A DNA stretch of 10,749 nucleotides from an uncultured Eubacteriales bacterium (lineage in GTDB: Bacteria > Bacillota > Clostridia > Lachnospirales > Lachnospiraceae). The translations under genes and the position numbers were made by a program. Numbering within the stretch: position 1 is the stretch's first letter; each line of letters opens with the position of its first letter. The notes beneath the pieces are model-generated. The model saw only the letters and a program-made list of their open reading frames with translations. It did no database searches and was not told the origin of the DNA. The stretch is taken from contig OMSN01000037.1 in assembly GCA_900313765.1 (NCBI GenBank), positions 1-10,749 on the forward strand, written 5' to 3'. Positions 2,462-9,702 of the stretch are shown here, one piece after another.

Positions 2462-3928
2462 ATGGCGTCAAGCAGAAAGAAGAATCCTTCCAGCCGGTAT
2501 TCCAGAATGGAAGAGCCGTGGCTGGATGAGAGAGATACGACAGACAGCCGGGACAGCCAGGGAGATCCCAGAGACGAAGGCTATGGCGTAAGGGACAGTT
2601 ATTCCAGACAGGCCTCCTACGGAAGACCTGACGGATATTATGATTCCTACCGTCCGTCCAGGGACCTGGGGGATACCCGGGTGTACTCCTCCTCCAGAGT
2701 GCGCAGTGCCTACAGGGCGGATGAGCGCCGGGAGGACAGATACAGAGAACAGAACTACAGACAAGAGAATTACAGGGATGACGATTACCGGGAAGAGAAT
2801 CCCTCAAAAGCAGCCTACGATGCGTGGGATGATCCGGACTACGATGACCGGTATGAGGACACGCGTTATGAGGACACACCGGCACCGAAGCGCTCTCGGG
2901 CGGCAGGAAGAACCCGCCGCAGGACAGATACGGAGGCTTCTTCCGGAAAGACCGGGTTCATCATCAAACTCATCCTTCTGCTGATCGCAACGGCAGCGCT
3001 GGTAGTCGTGTGGCGATTCTCCCGCATGGATCACCTGAATCTGAAGGATATCCTTACCAATGCAGGTGTCCTGTCTCCTGAAGGATATCAGGACTTTGTG
3101 ATCTACGGGGTGGATTCCAGAGAAGGAAGTCTGACCAGGGATGCGCATTCCGATACGATCATCCTGTGTTCGATGAATAAGACGACAAAAGAGATCCGGA
3201 TGGTATCCGTCTACCGGGATACCTATCTGGACAATACCAACGGAGAGTACCGCAAAGCGACGGAATGTTATTTCTTCGGAGGTCCGGAGCGGTCGGTCAA
3301 TATGCTCAACAAGAACCTTGACCTCAACCTGCACGACTATATCACGGTAGACTTCAATGCCGTTGTCAAGGCGGTGGACCTGATCGGCGGAGTTGATGTG
3401 GAAGTGACCGAGGAGGAACTCCCCTATATCAATGGATATCAGGAAGAAAATGCACAGGTGACAGGCGCCCAGATCACGCCGGTCACATCTGCAGGATATC
3501 AGCATCTGAACGGCATACAGGCGCTTGCGTACTGCCGGATCCGCTATACAGCCGGGTCCGACTACAGGCGGACAGAGAGGCAGAGGACGGTGCTGACGCA
3601 GATCTTCCAGAATGCGAAACAGCAGGGACCGGTAAAACTGGCTCAGATCGTGGATACCATGATCCCGTATATATCGACCAGTTTTTCATCCGCGCAGCTG
3701 CTGGCCCTGGCATCGGGGATCTCTGATTACGCGCTTTCCGAGACCTGCGGGTTCCCGTTTGATCTGCAGGCAGCCAACATATCGGCAGGGGACTGTGTGG
3801 TGCCGGTCAATCTGGCACAGAATGTGTCCCAGCTGCATACATTCCTGTATGCACAGACAGGCTATACGCCGTCTGAAACGGTGCAGCAGATCTCCGCGCA
3901 GATCAGTGCTGCGACAGGAATCTACTGA
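2462..3928 (+). CDS. LytR-CpsA-Psr (LCP) family glycopolymer-peptidoglycan ligase
   Basis: LCP proteins transfer undecaprenyl-pyrophosphate-linked glycans onto peptidoglycan outside the membrane. This 488-residue protein has a long charged N-terminal tail (1-162), one transmembrane helix at about 165-186 and an extracytoplasmic LCP domain from about 211. Family signatures are FVIYGVDSREG (212-222), AHSDTIIL (228-235), MVSVYRDTYL (247-256), an ITVDFNAVVKAVDLIGGVDV stretch (294-313) and a RIRY...DYRRTERQR block (359-375), giving the acidic and arginine residues that bind metal and pyrophosphate. About 110 residues follow without a recognised domain. The tail is odd: it carries 17 tyrosines in its first 160 residues among Arg, Asp and Glu. 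It lies between the initiating transferase and another glycosyltransferase, 16 and 10 bases away, which fits attachment of this locus's polysaccharide to the wall. Start ATG is preceded by AGGA and by GGAG a little further upstream. Confidence 0.92.
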   Translation: MASSRKKNPSSRYSRMEEPWLDERDTTDSRDSQGDPRDEGYGVRDSYSRQASYGRPDGYYDSYRPSRDLGDTRVYSSSRVRSAYRADERREDRYREQNYRQENYRDDDYREENPSKAAYDAWDDPDYDDRYEDTRYEDTPAPKRSRAAGRTRRRTDTEASSGKTGFIIKLILLLIATAALVVVWRFSRMDHLNLKDILTNAGVLSPEGYQDFVIYGVDSREGSLTRDAHSDTIILCSMNKTTKEIRMVSVYRDTYLDNTNGEYRKATECYFFGGPERSVNMLNKNLDLNLHDYITVDFNAVVKAVDLIGGVDVEVTEEELPYINGYQEENAQVTGAQITPVTSAGYQHLNGIQALAYCRIRYTAGSDYRRTERQRTVLTQIFQNAKQQGPVKLAQIVDTMIPYISTSFSSAQLLALASGISDYALSETCGFPFDLQAANISAGDCVVPVNLAQNVSQLHTFLYAQTGYTPSETVQQISAQISAATGIY

Positions 3929-3938
3929 GGTACTGATT

Positions 3939-4883
3939 ATGGAGGAAGTTACAGTTCTGATACCGACCTGGAGGCCGGACAGAAAACTGAATGAACTGCT
4001 TGACCGGCTGTCGAAACAGACGATCCTTCCAGCCAGAGTCCTGCTGCTCAATACCGTGGACGGAGATGAGGACAGCCAGGTTATGGAGAGTGTGGATGCT
4101 TTCCGTGACCGTTTTCCGGTCCTGTCGGTGTTTCATGTGGACAGGAAGGACTTCGATCATGGTGGAACAAGGCATCTGGGAATGACATTTGCGGATACTT
4201 CGCTTGTCCTGTGCATGACACAGGATGCACTGCCGAAAGATACCCATCTGATCCGGCACCTGGTGCGCTGTTTTGACGATCCTCTTGTCGGGGCGGCATA
4301 TGCAAGACAGCTTGCGGGAAAAGGCAGCAGTGCGGCGGAGCAGTTTACACGAACCTTCAATTATCCGCCGGTCTCTGCGGTAAAGTCCGCCGAAGACCTG
4401 GAGACGCTGGGCATCAAGACTTTTTTCTGCTCCGACGTCTGTGCCATGTGGCGCAGAGAGACGTACTTTGAGCTGGGTGGTTTCGAGCGTCCGACGATCT
4501 TCAATGAGGATATGATCCTGGCAGGGAAAATGATCCGTGCAGGGTACCGGATCGCATATGCGGCGGATGCGCAGGTGTGGCATTCTCACAGCTACTCTGC
4601 CGCAAAACAGCTCAGGAGGAACTTCGATCTGGGGGTTTCACAGGCAGATCATCCTGAAGTGTTCGACATGGCGTCTTCCACAGGGGAAGGCATCCGGCTG
4701 GTTAAGCAGACAGCCGGCTATCTGATCCGGAATAAAAAGGCCGCACAGCTTCCGAAACTGGTTCTGGACAGCGGCTGCAAATACATCGGCTATTCGCTGG
4801 GGAAGCGGTACAGGAAACTGCCCCCGGATATGATCAGGAGACTCACAGACAACAAAATGTACTGGGACAGACAGAAGAACTGA
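3939..4883 (+). CDS. Family 2 glycosyltransferase, rhamnosyltransferase-like
   Basis: This 314-residue protein is a second GT-A glycosyltransferase of the locus. It begins MEEVTVLIPTWRP, a GT2 start. It has DHGGTRHLG (73-81), a motif seen in rhamnosyltransferases of this superfamily, then MTQDALP (93-99) at the DXD position and FNEDMILAGKMIRAGYRI (188-205) as the acceptor-side block, followed by VWHSHSYS (213-220). The ATG at 3939 was chosen because TGAGG lies 8 bases upstream, overlapping the LCP stop, and because the domain begins at once. The frame is open further upstream to an ATG at 3759 inside the LCP gene, but that extension is the LCP gene read out of frame. A rhamnose donor is suggested by family resemblance only. 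It is the last gene of the polysaccharide group before a 110-base gap. Confidence 0.9.
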   Translation: MEEVTVLIPTWRPDRKLNELLDRLSKQTILPARVLLLNTVDGDEDSQVMESVDAFRDRFPVLSVFHVDRKDFDHGGTRHLGMTFADTSLVLCMTQDALPKDTHLIRHLVRCFDDPLVGAAYARQLAGKGSSAAEQFTRTFNYPPVSAVKSAEDLETLGIKTFFCSDVCAMWRRETYFELGGFERPTIFNEDMILAGKMIRAGYRIAYAADAQVWHSHSYSAAKQLRRNFDLGVSQADHPEVFDMASSTGEGIRLVKQTAGYLIRNKKAAQLPKLVLDSGCKYIGYSLGKRYRKLPPDMIRRLTDNKMYWDRQKN

Positions 4884-4918
4884 AGGAAAATGTCATATGG
4901 CAGTCTGTCTCCACACAT

Positions 4919-4941
4919 TTGACACAGGGTTGTGCTAGAGT
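4919..4941 (+). promoter_or_regulatory. Candidate extended -10 promoter ahead of the pseudo-HtrA gene
   Basis: In the 110-base gap, TG-C-TAGAGT (4933-4941) matches an extended -10 element, and a perfect -35 hexamer TTGACA lies at 4919-4924. The spacing is only 11 bases rather than about 17, so the two may not be used together; the extended -10 could act without the -35. No other good promoter was seen in the gap. Transcription would start near 4948, leaving a leader of about 45 bases that includes the strong ribosome site AGGAGAGG at 4981-4988. Confidence 0.4.
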
Positions 4942-4993
4942 GAAACCAGAATATGCGCAAAATCGGAAGTCCACAGAGTGAGGAGAGGAAACT

Positions 4994-7042
4994 ATGGATG
5001 AAGATAAGAGATATACGGGAGAAGATAATCTGAATGGCGGACAGCCCGGTGACGAAGGAATGGAAGTGCAGGATACATATGTCCCGGATGAGGGATATAC
5101 TCCGGACCCGGAAACTGTCCCGGATGAGGAATATACTTCAGCCCCGGAAACGATCCAGGATGAGGGGTATGCTCCGGACCCGGAATTCACTCCGGATCAG
5201 GAAGACACTACCGTCCCGGTGAATGAGGATGGGCAGGATGCGAAAGATGCGTCCGGCCAGCAGTCTGATGTGACAGACACCCCGGAGCAGCAGGCGCAGG
5301 ATGCAGAGATTCCCGGCGACGGCAGCGCTGCTCCCCAGGACCGTCCCCATGATTTTGATGTTGACGAGCCCAGATTCGATACACAGACGGGCGAGCCTCT
5401 GGACAAACCCAAGAAGAAATACCCGGGCATCATTCTGACAGTCGTTGTCACAGCGGCTGTAGTGGGCGCCTTCGTATATGCAGTCATGCCTGGAAAACTT
5501 CCCTCTGCTGTCAATGTCACAGACAATTCCGCCTCTCTTGCGATCGCATCAACAGAGGGGGAAGAGGAGCAGGTCGAGACAGAATCTGTTCAGAATGATA
5601 CCGTGTTGCCGGCCGCCCCGGCTGCGCAGACAGAAGCGGAAGCGGCACAGACCGAGTCCGAGCTGACGGCTGCACCGGGATCCGTTGAGACGGAAGTCGA
5701 GACGGAAGCAGAAACCGAAACGGAGACAGAAACAGAGAAAGAGGGATCCACTGTTCTTCATGTTACGCCGCAGGGTACGGATGACAAGAAGAAAGAAGAG
5801 CCTGAGTTCAAGACAGAAGGCGTGATCCTCAGCGCGTCGCTGGATGTGTCCGATATGGTGGAGGAAGTGATGCCGGGCATCGTTTCCGTCACCTGCACCA
5901 ACATCAAGACCGTCCGGGACTTCTTCTACGGAGTACAGGAGATTCAGCAGACGGACGCAGGGTCCGGCATCATCGTCAGTGAGGACGACGATGCGTACTA
6001 TATCGTAACGGACGCCTGGATCGTCAGCGGGGCGGAGGAGATGACCGTCGGATTCTCCGTATCCAAAGAGGCTACAAAGGAACTGTCTGATGAAGACACC
6101 CTGGCAGAGGCTGAACTGGTCGGTCTGGACCGCGATACCGAGCTTGCCATGCTCAGAGTACTTAAGAAGGATGTAAATGAAGTCATTCGCGGCCAGGTCA
6201 AACCTTCTGTGATCGGGGATTCGGACTCGATCCGTGTCGGTGAGCGTGCGATCGCCATCGGCAACGCCATGGGATACGGCCTGTCTGTTACGGAAGGGAT
6301 CATCAGCGCACTGAACCGTCAGATGTCGACGGGGCTTGGCATACACTCCTTCATTCAGACAGATGCGTCGATCAATTACGGCAATTACGGCGGCGCTCTG
6401 CTCAACGCGCAGGGAGAAGTGATCGGTATCAATGCAGGAAAGATCTCCAGAGATTCCGGAGAAGGCATGGGATATGCATTCCCCATCAATTCCGCCAAAG
6501 ACGCGATCACAGAGATGATCGGCACTGCTTCCGGATCTTCTGCGGAAGTTCAGGAAGAGCAGACGGAGGAAGCGCCGCAGAAAGAGACAGAAAGCAAGCC
6601 TGAAAACCAGGTCATGCTGCAGGTAGCTGATCCGGAGACGGAAGAAACCAAAGAGAGCGAAGCGGCCCCTGAGACAGAGGAGAAGGAGACGCAGCCTGAG
6701 GAAGAGAAGAGCGAAGAGAGCATCTCAAAACCGTCCTCCGGCGGAACACTGGGCGTGAGTGTCGGTGAAGTGTCGGATGAATACAGTATTATCTACCGCA
6801 TTCCGAAAGGCGCGTACATCATGGAGGTCATGGATGGCTCCGGCGCACAGAAGGCAGGACTTCGGGCGGATGATGTGATCATCCGGATCAATGATACCGA
6901 TATCACATCGGTCATGGAACTGAAGGATGCCCTTGCTTCCACCAGGCCGGGAGATAAGGTGAAGGTTACCTATCTGCGTCCGGACGGCAACGGGGACTAT
7001 GACAGCGACAGAACTTCGAATGTCACTGTAACGCTTCAGTAA
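4994..7042 (+). CDS. Membrane-anchored HtrA/DegP-like pseudoprotease with PDZ domain
   Basis: This 682-residue protein has the S1C (HtrA/DegP) layout: an acidic N-terminal tail (1-142) with a three-fold 12-residue repeat, positive residues KPKKK before one transmembrane helix (about 143-165), a Thr/Glu-rich linker (166-270), a trypsin-like domain (about 280-512), a second Glu-rich linker (517-580) and a C-terminal PDZ domain (about 583-680). The charge pattern places the protease-like and PDZ domains outside the membrane. HtrA landmarks are clear: GSGIIV (323-328), IAIGNAMGYGLSVTEGIISA (420-439), QTDASIN (455-461) and GEVIGIN (474-480). The catalytic triad is lost at all three places: the His of TNNHVV is W342, the Asp of the TDLA motif is E383 and the Ser of GNSGG is Y465. 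Two prolines near the serine are also changed (Y462, A468). The reading frame is otherwise clean, so this looks like a maintained non-proteolytic protein, perhaps a binding or scaffold factor. ATG 4994 follows AGGAGAGG. Family call is firm; lack of activity is inferred from residues. Confidence 0.88.
   Translation: MDEDKRYTGEDNLNGGQPGDEGMEVQDTYVPDEGYTPDPETVPDEEYTSAPETIQDEGYAPDPEFTPDQEDTTVPVNEDGQDAKDASGQQSDVTDTPEQQAQDAEIPGDGSAAPQDRPHDFDVDEPRFDTQTGEPLDKPKKKYPGIILTVVVTAAVVGAFVYAVMPGKLPSAVNVTDNSASLAIASTEGEEEQVETESVQNDTVLPAAPAAQTEAEAAQTESELTAAPGSVETEVETEAETETETETEKEGSTVLHVTPQGTDDKKKEEPEFKTEGVILSASLDVSDMVEEVMPGIVSVTCTNIKTVRDFFYGVQEIQQTDAGSGIIVSEDDDAYYIVTDAWIVSGAEEMTVGFSVSKEATKELSDEDTLAEAELVGLDRDTELAMLRVLKKDVNEVIRGQVKPSVIGDSDSIRVGERAIAIGNAMGYGLSVTEGIISALNRQMSTGLGIHSFIQTDASINYGNYGGALLNAQGEVIGINAGKISRDSGEGMGYAFPINSAKDAITEMIGTASGSSAEVQEEQTEEAPQKETESKPENQVMLQVADPETEETKESEAAPETEEKETQPEEEKSEESISKPSSGGTLGVSVGEVSDEYSIIYRIPKGAYIMEVMDGSGAQKAGLRADDVIIRINDTDITSVMELKDALASTRPGDKVKVTYLRPDGNGDYDSDRTSNVTVTLQ
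5081..5206 (+). repeat. Tandem 36-base repeat coding for an acidic 12-residue unit
   Basis: Three consecutive imperfect 36-base units (5081-5116, 5117-5152, 5153-5188) and a half unit (5189-5206) encode variants of VPDEGYTPDPET in the cytoplasmic tail of the pseudo-HtrA protein. The phase matches whole codons, so copy number can change without frameshift. Confidence 0.8.
5684..5743 (+). repeat. Low-complexity Glu-Thr coding tract
   Basis: Alternating GAG/GAA and ACG/ACA codons encode a run of Glu-Thr pairs (residues 231-250) in the extracytoplasmic linker between the transmembrane helix and the protease-like domain. It is a likely flexible spacer and a site prone to length variation. Confidence 0.7.
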
Positions 7043-7052
7043 AGGAATACGA

Positions 7053-8468
7053 ATGTCAGAAGATAAGAAAGAGATCCGGTCCTGTTTCATGTGCCGGCGC
7101 ACGGAGGAACAGGCAGGAAAACTGATTCAGCTTCCGGGCGGGATCACATTGTGTCAGGACTGTATGCAGAAGTCCTTCGACGCGATGGACAATCCGCAGG
7201 TGCGAAATATGCTGAACCTGCAGAATTTCTCGAATATGCAGAACTTTCCGGATATGGGCATGTTCCGCATGGACCAGTCCGCTGCGGGCGGTCCGGGGGA
7301 GAAACAGGACAGCAGGACAGACAGGAAAAAAGAAGAGAAGAAGCCGAAGGCCATGTTCGATATCGCCTCGCTGCCTGCTCCCCATAAGATCAAGGCGGCT
7401 CTGGATGATTATGTGATCGGTCAGGAATACGCGAAGAAAGTAATCTCCGTGGCTGTATACAACCACTATAAGCGCGTCAGGACCAATACGAATTCTCTGG
7501 ATGAGATCGAGATCGAGAAGTCAAACATGCTGATGATCGGCCCCACGGGAAGCGGTAAGACCTATCTGGTCAGGACCCTGTCCAGACTTCTGGATGTACC
7601 GCTCGCCATTGCGGACGCGACCGCCCTGACAGAGGCAGGATATATCGGTGATGACGTGGAGAGCGTTCTCAGTAAGCTGCTCTCAGCAGCGGACAACGAC
7701 GTGGACCGGGCTCAGACCGGCATTGTATTTATCGATGAGATCGATAAACTGGCCAAGAAACAGAATACCAACCAGAGAGATGTCAGTGGAGAGTCCGTGC
7801 AGCAGGGACTGCTGAAACTTCTCGAAGGCGCACAGATTGAAGTTCCGGTCGGCGCGACCAGCAAGAACGCGATGGTACCGATGACCACCCTGGATACAAA
7901 GAACATACTGTTCATCTGCGGCGGTGCATTTCCGGGACTGGAAGACATCATCAAAGAGAGGCTGACAAGATCCTCACTGATGGGATTCGGCTCCACGCTG
8001 AAGGACCAGTATGATGACGATCCTGACATCCTTACGAGAGTCAAGACGGAGGATCTGCGTAAATTCGGGATGATACCGGAGTTTGTGGGAAGACTTCCGA
8101 TGATCTTTGCGCTTCGCAAGCTTGACAAACAGATGCTGGTACGCATCCTGAAAGAACCCAGGAATGCGATCCTCAAGCAGTATCAGAAGCTTCTGGAACT
8201 GGACGAGGTGAAGCTGGACTTCGATGACGGTGCTCTGGAAGCAATCGCAGAGCAGGCACTGGAGAGAGATACCGGCGCGAGGGCACTGAGATCGATTATC
8301 GAAGAGTTCATGCTGGATATCATGTATGAGATACCGAAGGACGACAACATCGGCCAGGTTCTCATCACCAGGGCATATATTGAACATACGGGTGGTCCCG
8401 TGATTACCATGCGCGGCGCGCAGACACCGCTGCTCGGGGATCGTACACAGGACAGCCATCAACAGTAA
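7053..8468 (+). CDS. clpX: ClpX-family AAA+ unfoldase, probably a divergent paralogue
   Basis: ClpX is a hexameric ATPase that unfolds proteins and feeds them to the ClpP peptidase in the cytoplasm. This 471-residue protein has an N-terminal zinc-binding domain (C11, C14, C34, C37), a long Met/Asn/Lys-rich linker (about 48-100) and a complete AAA+ core. Seen in the core are Walker A GPTGSGKT (163-170), pore loop GYIG (196-199), Walker B IVFIDE (224-229), sensor 1 region ILFICGGAF (285-293), arginine finger FVGR (344-347) and sensor 2 GAR (408-410). The ClpP-docking loop reads MGF (310-312) in place of IGF, with the key Phe kept. The RKH loop expected near 270 reads SKN and its surroundings diverge, so substrate choice may differ. 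Canonical clpX genes usually follow clpP or tig-clpP; here it follows the pseudo-HtrA gene by 10 bases, with AAAGGA 6 bases before the ATG. It could still be the only ClpX of the genome. Confidence 0.88.
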   Translation: MSEDKKEIRSCFMCRRTEEQAGKLIQLPGGITLCQDCMQKSFDAMDNPQVRNMLNLQNFSNMQNFPDMGMFRMDQSAAGGPGEKQDSRTDRKKEEKKPKAMFDIASLPAPHKIKAALDDYVIGQEYAKKVISVAVYNHYKRVRTNTNSLDEIEIEKSNMLMIGPTGSGKTYLVRTLSRLLDVPLAIADATALTEAGYIGDDVESVLSKLLSAADNDVDRAQTGIVFIDEIDKLAKKQNTNQRDVSGESVQQGLLKLLEGAQIEVPVGATSKNAMVPMTTLDTKNILFICGGAFPGLEDIIKERLTRSSLMGFGSTLKDQYDDDPDILTRVKTEDLRKFGMIPEFVGRLPMIFALRKLDKQMLVRILKEPRNAILKQYQKLLELDEVKLDFDDGALEAIAEQALERDTGARALRSIIEEFMLDIMYEIPKDDNIGQVLITRAYIEHTGGPVITMRGAQTPLLGDRTQDSHQQ

Positions 8469-8477
8469 TAGACAGAT

Positions 8478-8500
8478 CTGGGCAGCATGGCCCGGGAGGG
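8478..8500 (+). promoter_or_regulatory. Small hairpin touching the distant rpoD ribosome site
   Basis: In the 46-base gap before rpoD, CTGGGC (8478-8483) can pair with GCCCGG (8490-8495) with one G-T pair and a 6-base loop. The only strong ribosome site, GGAGGG (8495-8500), touches this stem and lies 14 bases from the ATG, further than usual. There is no T-run, so it is not a terminator. Whether it affects rpoD translation is conjecture. Confidence 0.3.
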
Positions 8501-8514
8501 AGCGGTAACATTTT

Positions 8515-9702
8515 ATGAGTGATAACGCACAGGCGCAGTTTGTGCAGACACTGCAGGATATCGTTGATAAGGCAAGGAAAAACAATGATACGATCCGGAT
8601 GGATGAGATCATGGGGGCCTTCGAAGGTATGGACCTTCCGGTCGAACAGATGGAAGAGATCTATGAGCACATCCGGAATCAGAATATCATCGTCATTCAG
8701 GGGAAAGGACCCGAGGACAGCCTGGATGGAGAACCGGATCCGGAAGAGACAGATGATATCCTGATCGATGCCGACGACGATGATCTTCTGGAGACAGAAG
8801 ATGATGAGATTGAAAACCTGGATGATGTGGAGGAAGTCCGCATCGAGGAGACCTCTGAAGTGCTGGAAGGTGTGTCCACGGAGGACCCCGTCCGCATGTA
8901 TCTGAAGGAGATCGGTAATGTTCCGCTGCTCACTTCTGAACAGGAGGTGGATCTGGCAAGACGTGTGGAGGAAGGAGATCCGGAAGCAAAGAAGGCGCTG
9001 ACAGAGGCGAACCTTCGTCTTGTCGTATCCATTGCGAAGAAATATGTCGGCCGCGGCATGCCGTTCCTGGACCTGATCCAGGAAGGCAATATGGGGCTGA
9101 TGAAGGCTGTCGACAAGTTCGACTATACCAAGGGCTATAAGTTCTCGACGTACGCCACATGGTGGATCCGCCAGGCTATAACCCGCGGCATCGCGGATAC
9201 CGGAAGAACGATCCGCGTCCCGGTCCATATGGTCGAGACGATCAACAAGACGCTGCGCATGACCAGGCAGCTGCTGCAGGAACTGGGCCGTGAACCTACC
9301 CCGGAAGAGGTTGCCGATAAACTCGGGGTTCCTGCCTCCAGAGTCCGCGAAGTCCTGAAGATCTCGAGAGATCCGGTTTCCCTCGATACTCCGATCGGTG
9401 AGGAAGATGATTCCCATCTTGGCGATTTCATCGAGGATGATACCGCACTCTCACCTGCAGACAGCGCGACCTTCTCCATGCTGAAGGAAGAACTGTCCAA
9501 TGCCCTCGAATCTCTGACAGAGAGGGAGAGACAGGTTGTTAAGCTGAGGTTCGGACTGGAGGACGGAAGAGCCAGAACACTGGAAGAGGTTGGCAAAGAG
9601 TTCAACGTCACCAGAGAGCGTATCCGTCAGATCGAGGCGAAAGCGCTGCGTAAGCTCAGACATCCCAGCCGCTCCAAGAGGCTGAAGGATTTTCTTACAT
9701 AA
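8515..9702 (+). CDS. rpoD: Primary RNA polymerase sigma factor RpoD/SigA
   Basis: This 395-residue protein directs RNA polymerase to housekeeping promoters. It has a region 1.1-like segment (about 8-62), a very acidic linker (62-118) and region 1.2 ([20 protein letters not shown], 124-143). Region 2 spans about 164-231, with [20 protein letters not shown] at 184-203 and the -10 reading and melting block [17 protein letters not shown] at 208-224. Region 3 follows from [15 protein letters not shown] (231-245), and region 4 (about 334-395) ends in the helix-turn-helix [20 protein letters not shown] (365-384). Length fits Firmicutes SigA. An in-frame TAA at 8506-8508 makes ATG 8515 the only sensible start. 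In most Firmicutes rpoD follows dnaG; here the upstream gene is the ClpX-family protein. FolC starts 2 bases downstream. The strong region 2 and 4 signatures mark it as primary rather than an alternative sigma factor. Confidence 0.96.

Follow-up and report, generated by a model that had tools for sequence, protein, structure and literature searches.

HtrA proteins work as trimers, and their PDZ domain regulates the protease via close contact, as established for DegS and DegP. The Csp proteins are subtilisin-like. Bacterial HtrA pseudoproteases are already known through MamO, for which metal binding and MamE activation are reported and whose authors describe three independent origins in magnetotactic groups (PMC4794232). 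An engineered Ser260Ala HtrA of Bacillus subtilis is reported to lower secretion stress, an effect ascribed to chaperone-like activity, and to raise the yield of secreted enzyme (PMC10715036); a dead HtrA can therefore benefit a Gram-positive. Clostridia also use dead proteases in signal transduction, as described for the CspC and CspA pseudoproteases of Clostridioides difficile (PMC12880746). Here we analyse a stretch of 10,749 nucleotides (the window; contig OMSN01000037.1 of assembly GCA_900313765.1) from an uncultured Lachnospiraceae bacterium, whose draft genome is 2.2 Mb in size and 75% complete. On its plus strand, an open reading frame (ORF) at 4994..7042 encodes a protein of 682 aa, named pseudo-HtrA in the following. 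Judged from its residues, pseudo-HtrA is a catalytically dead pseudoprotease, and it is a separate, new variant next to MamO.

Like DegP, DegQ and DegS, pseudo-HtrA has a chymotrypsin-fold S1C domain followed by a PDZ domain, with motifs of the GSGI, QTDA-IN, GN-GG and GEVIGIN type. Unlike them, it keeps zero catalytic residues and has a conserved juxtamembrane motif. Its linker between S1C and PDZ comprises 70 aa, while this linker is short in DegQ and intact relatives. With MamO it shares the HtrA origin and the apparent retention for a non-catalytic job. However, MamO is reported to keep His and Asp, to have Thr at the nucleophile and Glu at the oxyanion Gly position, and to bear both a metal site and a TauE domain (PMC4794232), whereas pseudo-HtrA has lost all three triad residues, keeps GN-GG and contains a PDZ domain. 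Against the NCBIfam MamO model it scores 46.5 bits with a cut-off of 800, and identity with MamO is rejected. The B. subtilis variant is likewise described as a Gram-positive HtrA without proteolysis (PMC10715036), but it is a laboratory single mutant, while the loss here is natural, genus-wide and covers three residues. CspC and CspA differ in that they act in spore germination.

Catalytic positions of the S1C domain

The S1C domain spans residues 280-512 (5831..6529), as seen from Pfam, an alignment with DegQ and an AlphaFold2 (AF2) model. Translation and a phmmer alignment with Escherichia coli DegQ (PDB) place W342 (TGG, 6017..6019), E383 (GAG, 6140..6142) and Y465 (TAC, 6386..6388, within GNYGG) in register with the triad residues of the NNHV, SDIA and GN-GG motifs, which confirms the reading of these three codons in the initial annotation. 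In an alignment with 30 homologues, all 17 rows outside the pseudo-HtrA clade hold His-Asp-Ser in those columns. Pfam matches are found for Trypsin_2 (residues 323-479, E 2.1e-24, 87.3 bits with a cut-off of 27.6) and PDZ_2 (residues 584-665, 54.1 bits with a cut-off of 27), the PDZ domain itself being placed at residues 583-682 (6740..7039) from Pfam and the AF2 model. This model matches DegQ, DegP and PepD, with a root-mean-square deviation of 2.2-2.5 Å over the protease domain for 3sti and 2z9i, and the HtrA fold is thus predicted to be kept. The previously suggested retention of fold and PDZ domain is thereby supported. The NCBIfam Do-family score is 204 bits with a cut-off of 416.2; an intact linked HtrA (L120) likewise stays below it with 244. 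Pseudo-HtrA has the Trypsin_2 plus PDZ architecture of the HtrA/S1C family without the His-Asp-Ser triad of an HtrA serine protease. As a conserved, apparently non-catalytic HtrA under purifying selection, it fits a working class that we call bacterial HtrA pseudoprotease.

Our homologue search scored 7986 candidates, of which 7778 were kept, and residues were counted in the best 120. The best 70 of these 120 have Tyr at the Ser position, one (P0071) has Ile (S/G/I), and the other 49 have both Ser and His. Among the matches listed, 43 of these 49 lower-ranked His and Ser homologues carry Glu at the Asp position, so that E383 alone is uninformative; W342 and Y465 are, from the alignment, the telling replacements. 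Many of the His and Ser homologues (P0073-P0120) are about 517 aa long and look like near copies. Within the Tyr group, P0036 and P0037 keep the Asp (F-D-Y), P0018 reads His-Asp-Tyr, and a TETET repeat joins P0054 to a ClpC-like AAA protein; the latter two look like assembly chimeras. A set of 80 pseudo-HtrA rows was formed after dropping P0018, P0054, and P0064 and P0070, which are without the His segment; P0071 is also not part of it. We looked for an intact triad formed by other residues, and an alternative catalytic His is not present in the S1C domain. Its only His, H451, is His in 59/80 relatives and C301 is Cys in 34/80; no His or Cys of S1C is conserved among the 80 aligned relatives. 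Both residues were rejected as catalytic substitutes.

Conservation of the triad loss and its probable origin

Among named records, the best matches are genomes of uncultured Lachnospiraceae or Clostridia and a record of Porcincola intestinalis (L040, containing L013). Many matching records bear RUG names, which we take to denote rumen genomes. The pig-gut isolate P. intestinalis, which belongs to the genus, appears as a species in work on cultured pig-gut bacteria (PMC7738495). The gene with complete S1C and PDZ is found in 14 of 19 genus genomes, one copy (L010 in G016) having its N-terminus cut by a contig end, and fragments occur in three (G012, G015, G017). In the remaining two (G007, G014) the locus of ClpX2, the second ClpX paralogue encoded downstream, is seemingly unassembled; among the matches listed, they have canonical ClpX only, plus a 52-residue ClpX2 fragment in G014. 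All three triad residues are missing in 14/14 complete genes. The His position holds W, V, S, Y or Q and the Asp position E, G, Q, L, M or S, while the Ser position is Tyr in 12 and Asn in two. Chance is excluded, as is sequencing error, already considered unlikely in the initial annotation, by the 13 other genus assemblies, including the P. intestinalis record (Y-E-Y). Recent decay was doubted there as well. Indeed, the frame is open in 14 genomes, the locus is conserved, and the ratio of nonsynonymous to synonymous substitution rates (dN/dS) of S1C is about 0.08-0.20 (0.077, 0.094, 0.204, 0.117, 0.077 and 0.108 in six pairs; 0.005 and 0.131 in two active HtrA pairs). The S1C domain is therefore under purifying selection and not in decay.

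The nucleophile position of the 80 rows is Tyr in 78 and Asn in two. On the 80-row tree, at least 13 changes are needed at the His position, 10 at the Asp position and one at the Ser position; the S1C median is six, and 57/233 S1C columns change at most once. Thus, the Tyr is conserved though not uniquely, and variation at the His and Asp positions exceeds that of the median column; relatives show combinations such as V/L, S/M and G/M there. Of Trp, Glu and Tyr, only the Tyr is conserved across the clade, with one branch excepted; W342 and E383 are rejected as conserved replacements since both positions drift. Across 37 active rows, two of them identical, 58 positions reach at least 90% conservation, and 43 of these do so in the 12 Tyr-type genes as well. 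Among the 15 positions lost are the whole triad and an Asn located two residues ahead of the His, which is Asp in all 12 Tyr-type genes; the GN-GG residues of the oxyanion loop are retained. Evolution has preserved this triad-less state, and pseudo-HtrA very probably has a function other than cleavage.

Of 13 named genus loci, 11 show the full order GT2a-sugT-LCP-GT2b-pseudoHtrA-ClpX2-RpoD-FolC, with glycosyltransferase genes on both sides of LCP, and the other two are interrupted by contig ends; a 14th record (L056) holds the gene start only. ClpX2 (7053..8468, plus strand) begins 10 bases past the pseudo-HtrA stop codon in the window, a spacing that varies among relatives. It has the Walker, pore and zinc motifs. 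The canonical ClpX adjoins clpP-, tig- and engB-like ORFs, named by eye. At one loop, ClpX2 has VPVGATSKNAMVP where the canonical ClpX of the same genome has GGRKHP, and this loop is kept with small changes in the aligned ClpX2 rows of the genus and of other genera.

Outside the genus, we inspected 19 ClpX2 loci from 19 other Lachnospiraceae genera. An HtrA is present in the ClpX2 stretch of 16 of them, and all 16 have His-Asp-Ser; the inspected stretches of L104, L107 and L114 contain zero HtrA. In 13/16 the HtrA lies on the same strand within 450 bases of ClpX2, while the gap is 1.3-1.7 kb in L106, L115 and L116, with a divergent gene in L115. For G019, another genome of the family and outside the 19 inspected, the matches listed contain only a ClpX of 54% identity. 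A broader search covered 200 family genomes from a larger group, two of them from the source genus; beyond these two, only G183 and G220 pass E 1e-54, and each of the three HtrAs in these two genomes is intact. From GT2a to ClpX2, the gene order of the G183 locus is identical. Two side observations concern G183: its intact-triad HtrA (L128:5763-7364) has GCSGG in place of GNSGG, and its ClpX2 (L129:110-1490) is split over frames with internal stops beside an intact HtrA, by decay or assembly indels.

Three clade trees were calculated, excluding the fragments of G012, G015 and G017; the bootstraps of the first and second are unsettled, and P0071 was also left out of the third. In all three, a branch with 100/100 support separates the pseudo-HtrA clade from the other rows. 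In the third, the G183 HtrA and P0072 group with it in a 26-row set (100/96 support). Two rows with Asn at the nucleophile position, L015 and L016, are unresolved in the first tree and lie inside a 20-row fork (90/74) in the third. The Asn prompted us to consider that the codon passed from Ser (AGC) via Asn (AAC) to Tyr (TAC), which we do not claim because the placement of these two rows in the clade is unsure. Since the ClpX2-linked HtrAs of the other genera inspected are all intact and the pseudo-HtrAs are one clade, activity was most likely lost near the base of the source genus from a working, ClpX2-linked HtrA. Close orthologues with a normal triad had been named at the outset as evidence against a dead protein; the same-locus HtrAs of other genera do carry one, which dates the loss and does not refute it.

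Accompanying changes and possible roles

The acidic linker between S1C and PDZ (residues 513-582, 6530..6739; 33% D+E) is expanded. Linkers of 47-168 residues are found in 24 pseudo-HtrA rows, in contrast to 6-9 in 29/30 intact rows, and the pseudo-HtrA linkers are 21-38% acidic and 2-16% basic. The predicted local distance difference test (pLDDT) score of the window protein is below 50 across model residues 244-311, the linker region. By analogy with known HtrAs, such a long loose linker fits a PDZ domain released from regulating the protease. On the other side of the S1C domain, the juxtamembrane motif, predicted to be cytoplasmic, HDFDVDEPRFDTQTGEPLDKPKKKYP (residues 119-144, 5348..5425) reads DEPKFDTQTGERLDKPKKK in many rows and is nearly invariant in the orthologue alignment, with D120, E125 and D129-E134 invariant in 14 orthologues and a dN/dS of 0-0.05 in five pairs with finite dS. 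It was not found in the stretch before the transmembrane segment of the active HtrAs at the locus. The motif core occurs 16 times in the 19 genus genomes; 15 of these occurrences lie in the pseudo-HtrA gene, and the other one lies close to the end of an ORF of 806 aa with a different context. The linker, the motif and the neighbouring ClpX2 are additions to the initial annotation.

With a probability of roughly 0.6, we consider pseudo-HtrA to be a pseudoprotease derived from a once-active, ClpX2-linked HtrA, which lost its triad near the genus base and whose fold is kept because it binds something. The peptide-binding, scaffold or sensor role suggested in the initial annotation is plausible, and a non-proteolytic, membrane-tethered binding scaffold or holdase would be the most likely mechanism. 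The S1C and PDZ modules would be extracytoplasmic and bind polypeptide that is exported or misfolded, with no cutting; pseudo-HtrA would in this way serve as a holdase or scaffold tethered to the membrane, possibly signalling inward. The juxtamembrane motif may dock a cytoplasmic partner, with ClpX2 as the first candidate. Several points weigh against this reading. Y465 is not exceptional, given the 57 S1C columns that change as rarely, and the branch of L015 and L016 combines Asn at the nucleophile with a further loss of family motifs. A long linker of 76 residues is also present in the intact HtrA P025. The HtrA-ClpX2 pairing is older than the activity loss and may reflect shared regulation only. 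In our literature search, the sole paper joining ClpX, HtrA and Lachnospiraceae concerns CRISPR; among the papers listed, judged by titles and abstract openings and with most subscription papers out of reach, we found none on a Lachnospiraceae pseudo-HtrA or an HtrA-ClpX2 pair.

Inward signalling through the motif and damping of active paralogues are the main rivals. As a transmembrane sensor or adaptor, pseudo-HtrA would relay extracytoplasmic peptide binding to the DEPKFDTQTGERLDKPKKK motif and thereby recruit or regulate ClpX2. The near invariance of the motif, its confinement to the pseudo-HtrA gene in 15 of 16 occurrences, its absence from the active HtrAs at the locus and the conserved gene pair all speak for this. 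However, ClpX2 also pairs with active HtrAs that do not have the motif, hence ClpX2 does not need it, and the motif might instead serve topology or membrane targeting; we regard this role as possible but clearly less probable than a binding scaffold. Slightly less probable again is a regulatory subunit, which would enter trimers with the cell's own active HtrA paralogues, or compete for their substrates, and so damp them. The trimeric nature of HtrAs suits this idea, an intact paralogue (L001) exists in the same genome, and 16/16 genus paralogues examined are His-Asp-Ser; but pseudo-HtrA is distant from them (38-46% identity), with a strongly different linker and N-terminus. More speculative is the extended view that a quality-control protease became a transmembrane receptor, in which the dead S1C and the uncoupled PDZ would read exported peptides and the motif would pass the signal on to a specialised unfoldase, the ClpX2 encoded directly downstream.

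A hydrolase that stays active through other residues might be suspected from the kept oxyanion-loop glycines and Asn, the fixed Tyr and the Glu that 43 His and Ser homologues tolerate, making E383 no bar; with no conserved His or Cys in S1C and with V/L, S/M or G/M at the His and Asp positions of relatives, it is very improbable. A decaying relic or assembly artefact, suggested by the triad loss itself and by the chimera-like P0018 and P0054, is refuted by the open frames in 14 genomes including the P. intestinalis record, the low dN/dS and the conserved locus.

The locus amounts to a clean experiment of nature: its HtrA is an intact protease wherever other genera were inspected and a fully dead protein in one genus, with three coupled differences in triad, linker and juxtamembrane motif. 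This makes it possible to test directly which function HtrA proteins have when they do not cut, and whether they cooperate with the second ClpX of Lachnospiraceae. Such dead proteins are still labelled trypsin-like peptidases by domain searches.

Further features and other pseudo-HtrAs

The pseudo-HtrA ORF, supported by Pfam, alignment and the locus kept across the genus, has an ATG start with GAGGAGAGGAAACT upstream. The N-terminus (residues 1-118, 4994..5347), presumably cytoplasmic, is acidic (30% D+E) and weakly conserved (dN/dS 0.25-0.46, five pairs with finite dS). A transmembrane segment is predicted at residues ~146-164 (5429..5485; mean hydropathy 2.58 over 19 residues), and KPKKK on its N side implies a predicted N-in, C-out topology. 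A promoter and terminator scan of 3700-8700 gave signals at shuffle level only, and an Rfam scan gave zero matches at gathering scores.

Another Lachnospiraceae pseudo-HtrA clade was seen in L046:9887-10945, L048:8231-8884 and L050:369-1415; here the His position reads D or S, the Asp is retained and Asn replaces the Ser. This clade is separate from the genus clade, its linkers have 6, 0 and 6 residues, and no window-type neighbours were found in the inspected flanks. Two HtrA-like proteins with GNYGG, from Candidatus Scalindua (L051:10103-11080; N at Asp, Y at Ser) and from a Clostridia metagenome-assembled genome (L049:9995-10966; E, N, Y), are apparent independent Ser-to-Tyr losses. In the second tree, L049 is placed next to an active HtrA, with a very long branch; it was left out of the third. 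In L052, L053 and L054 (Oligoflexia/Bacteriovoracaceae), a GNSGG HtrA adjoins a second HtrA with GNNGG, and these are possible tandem pairs of an active and a pseudo-HtrA.
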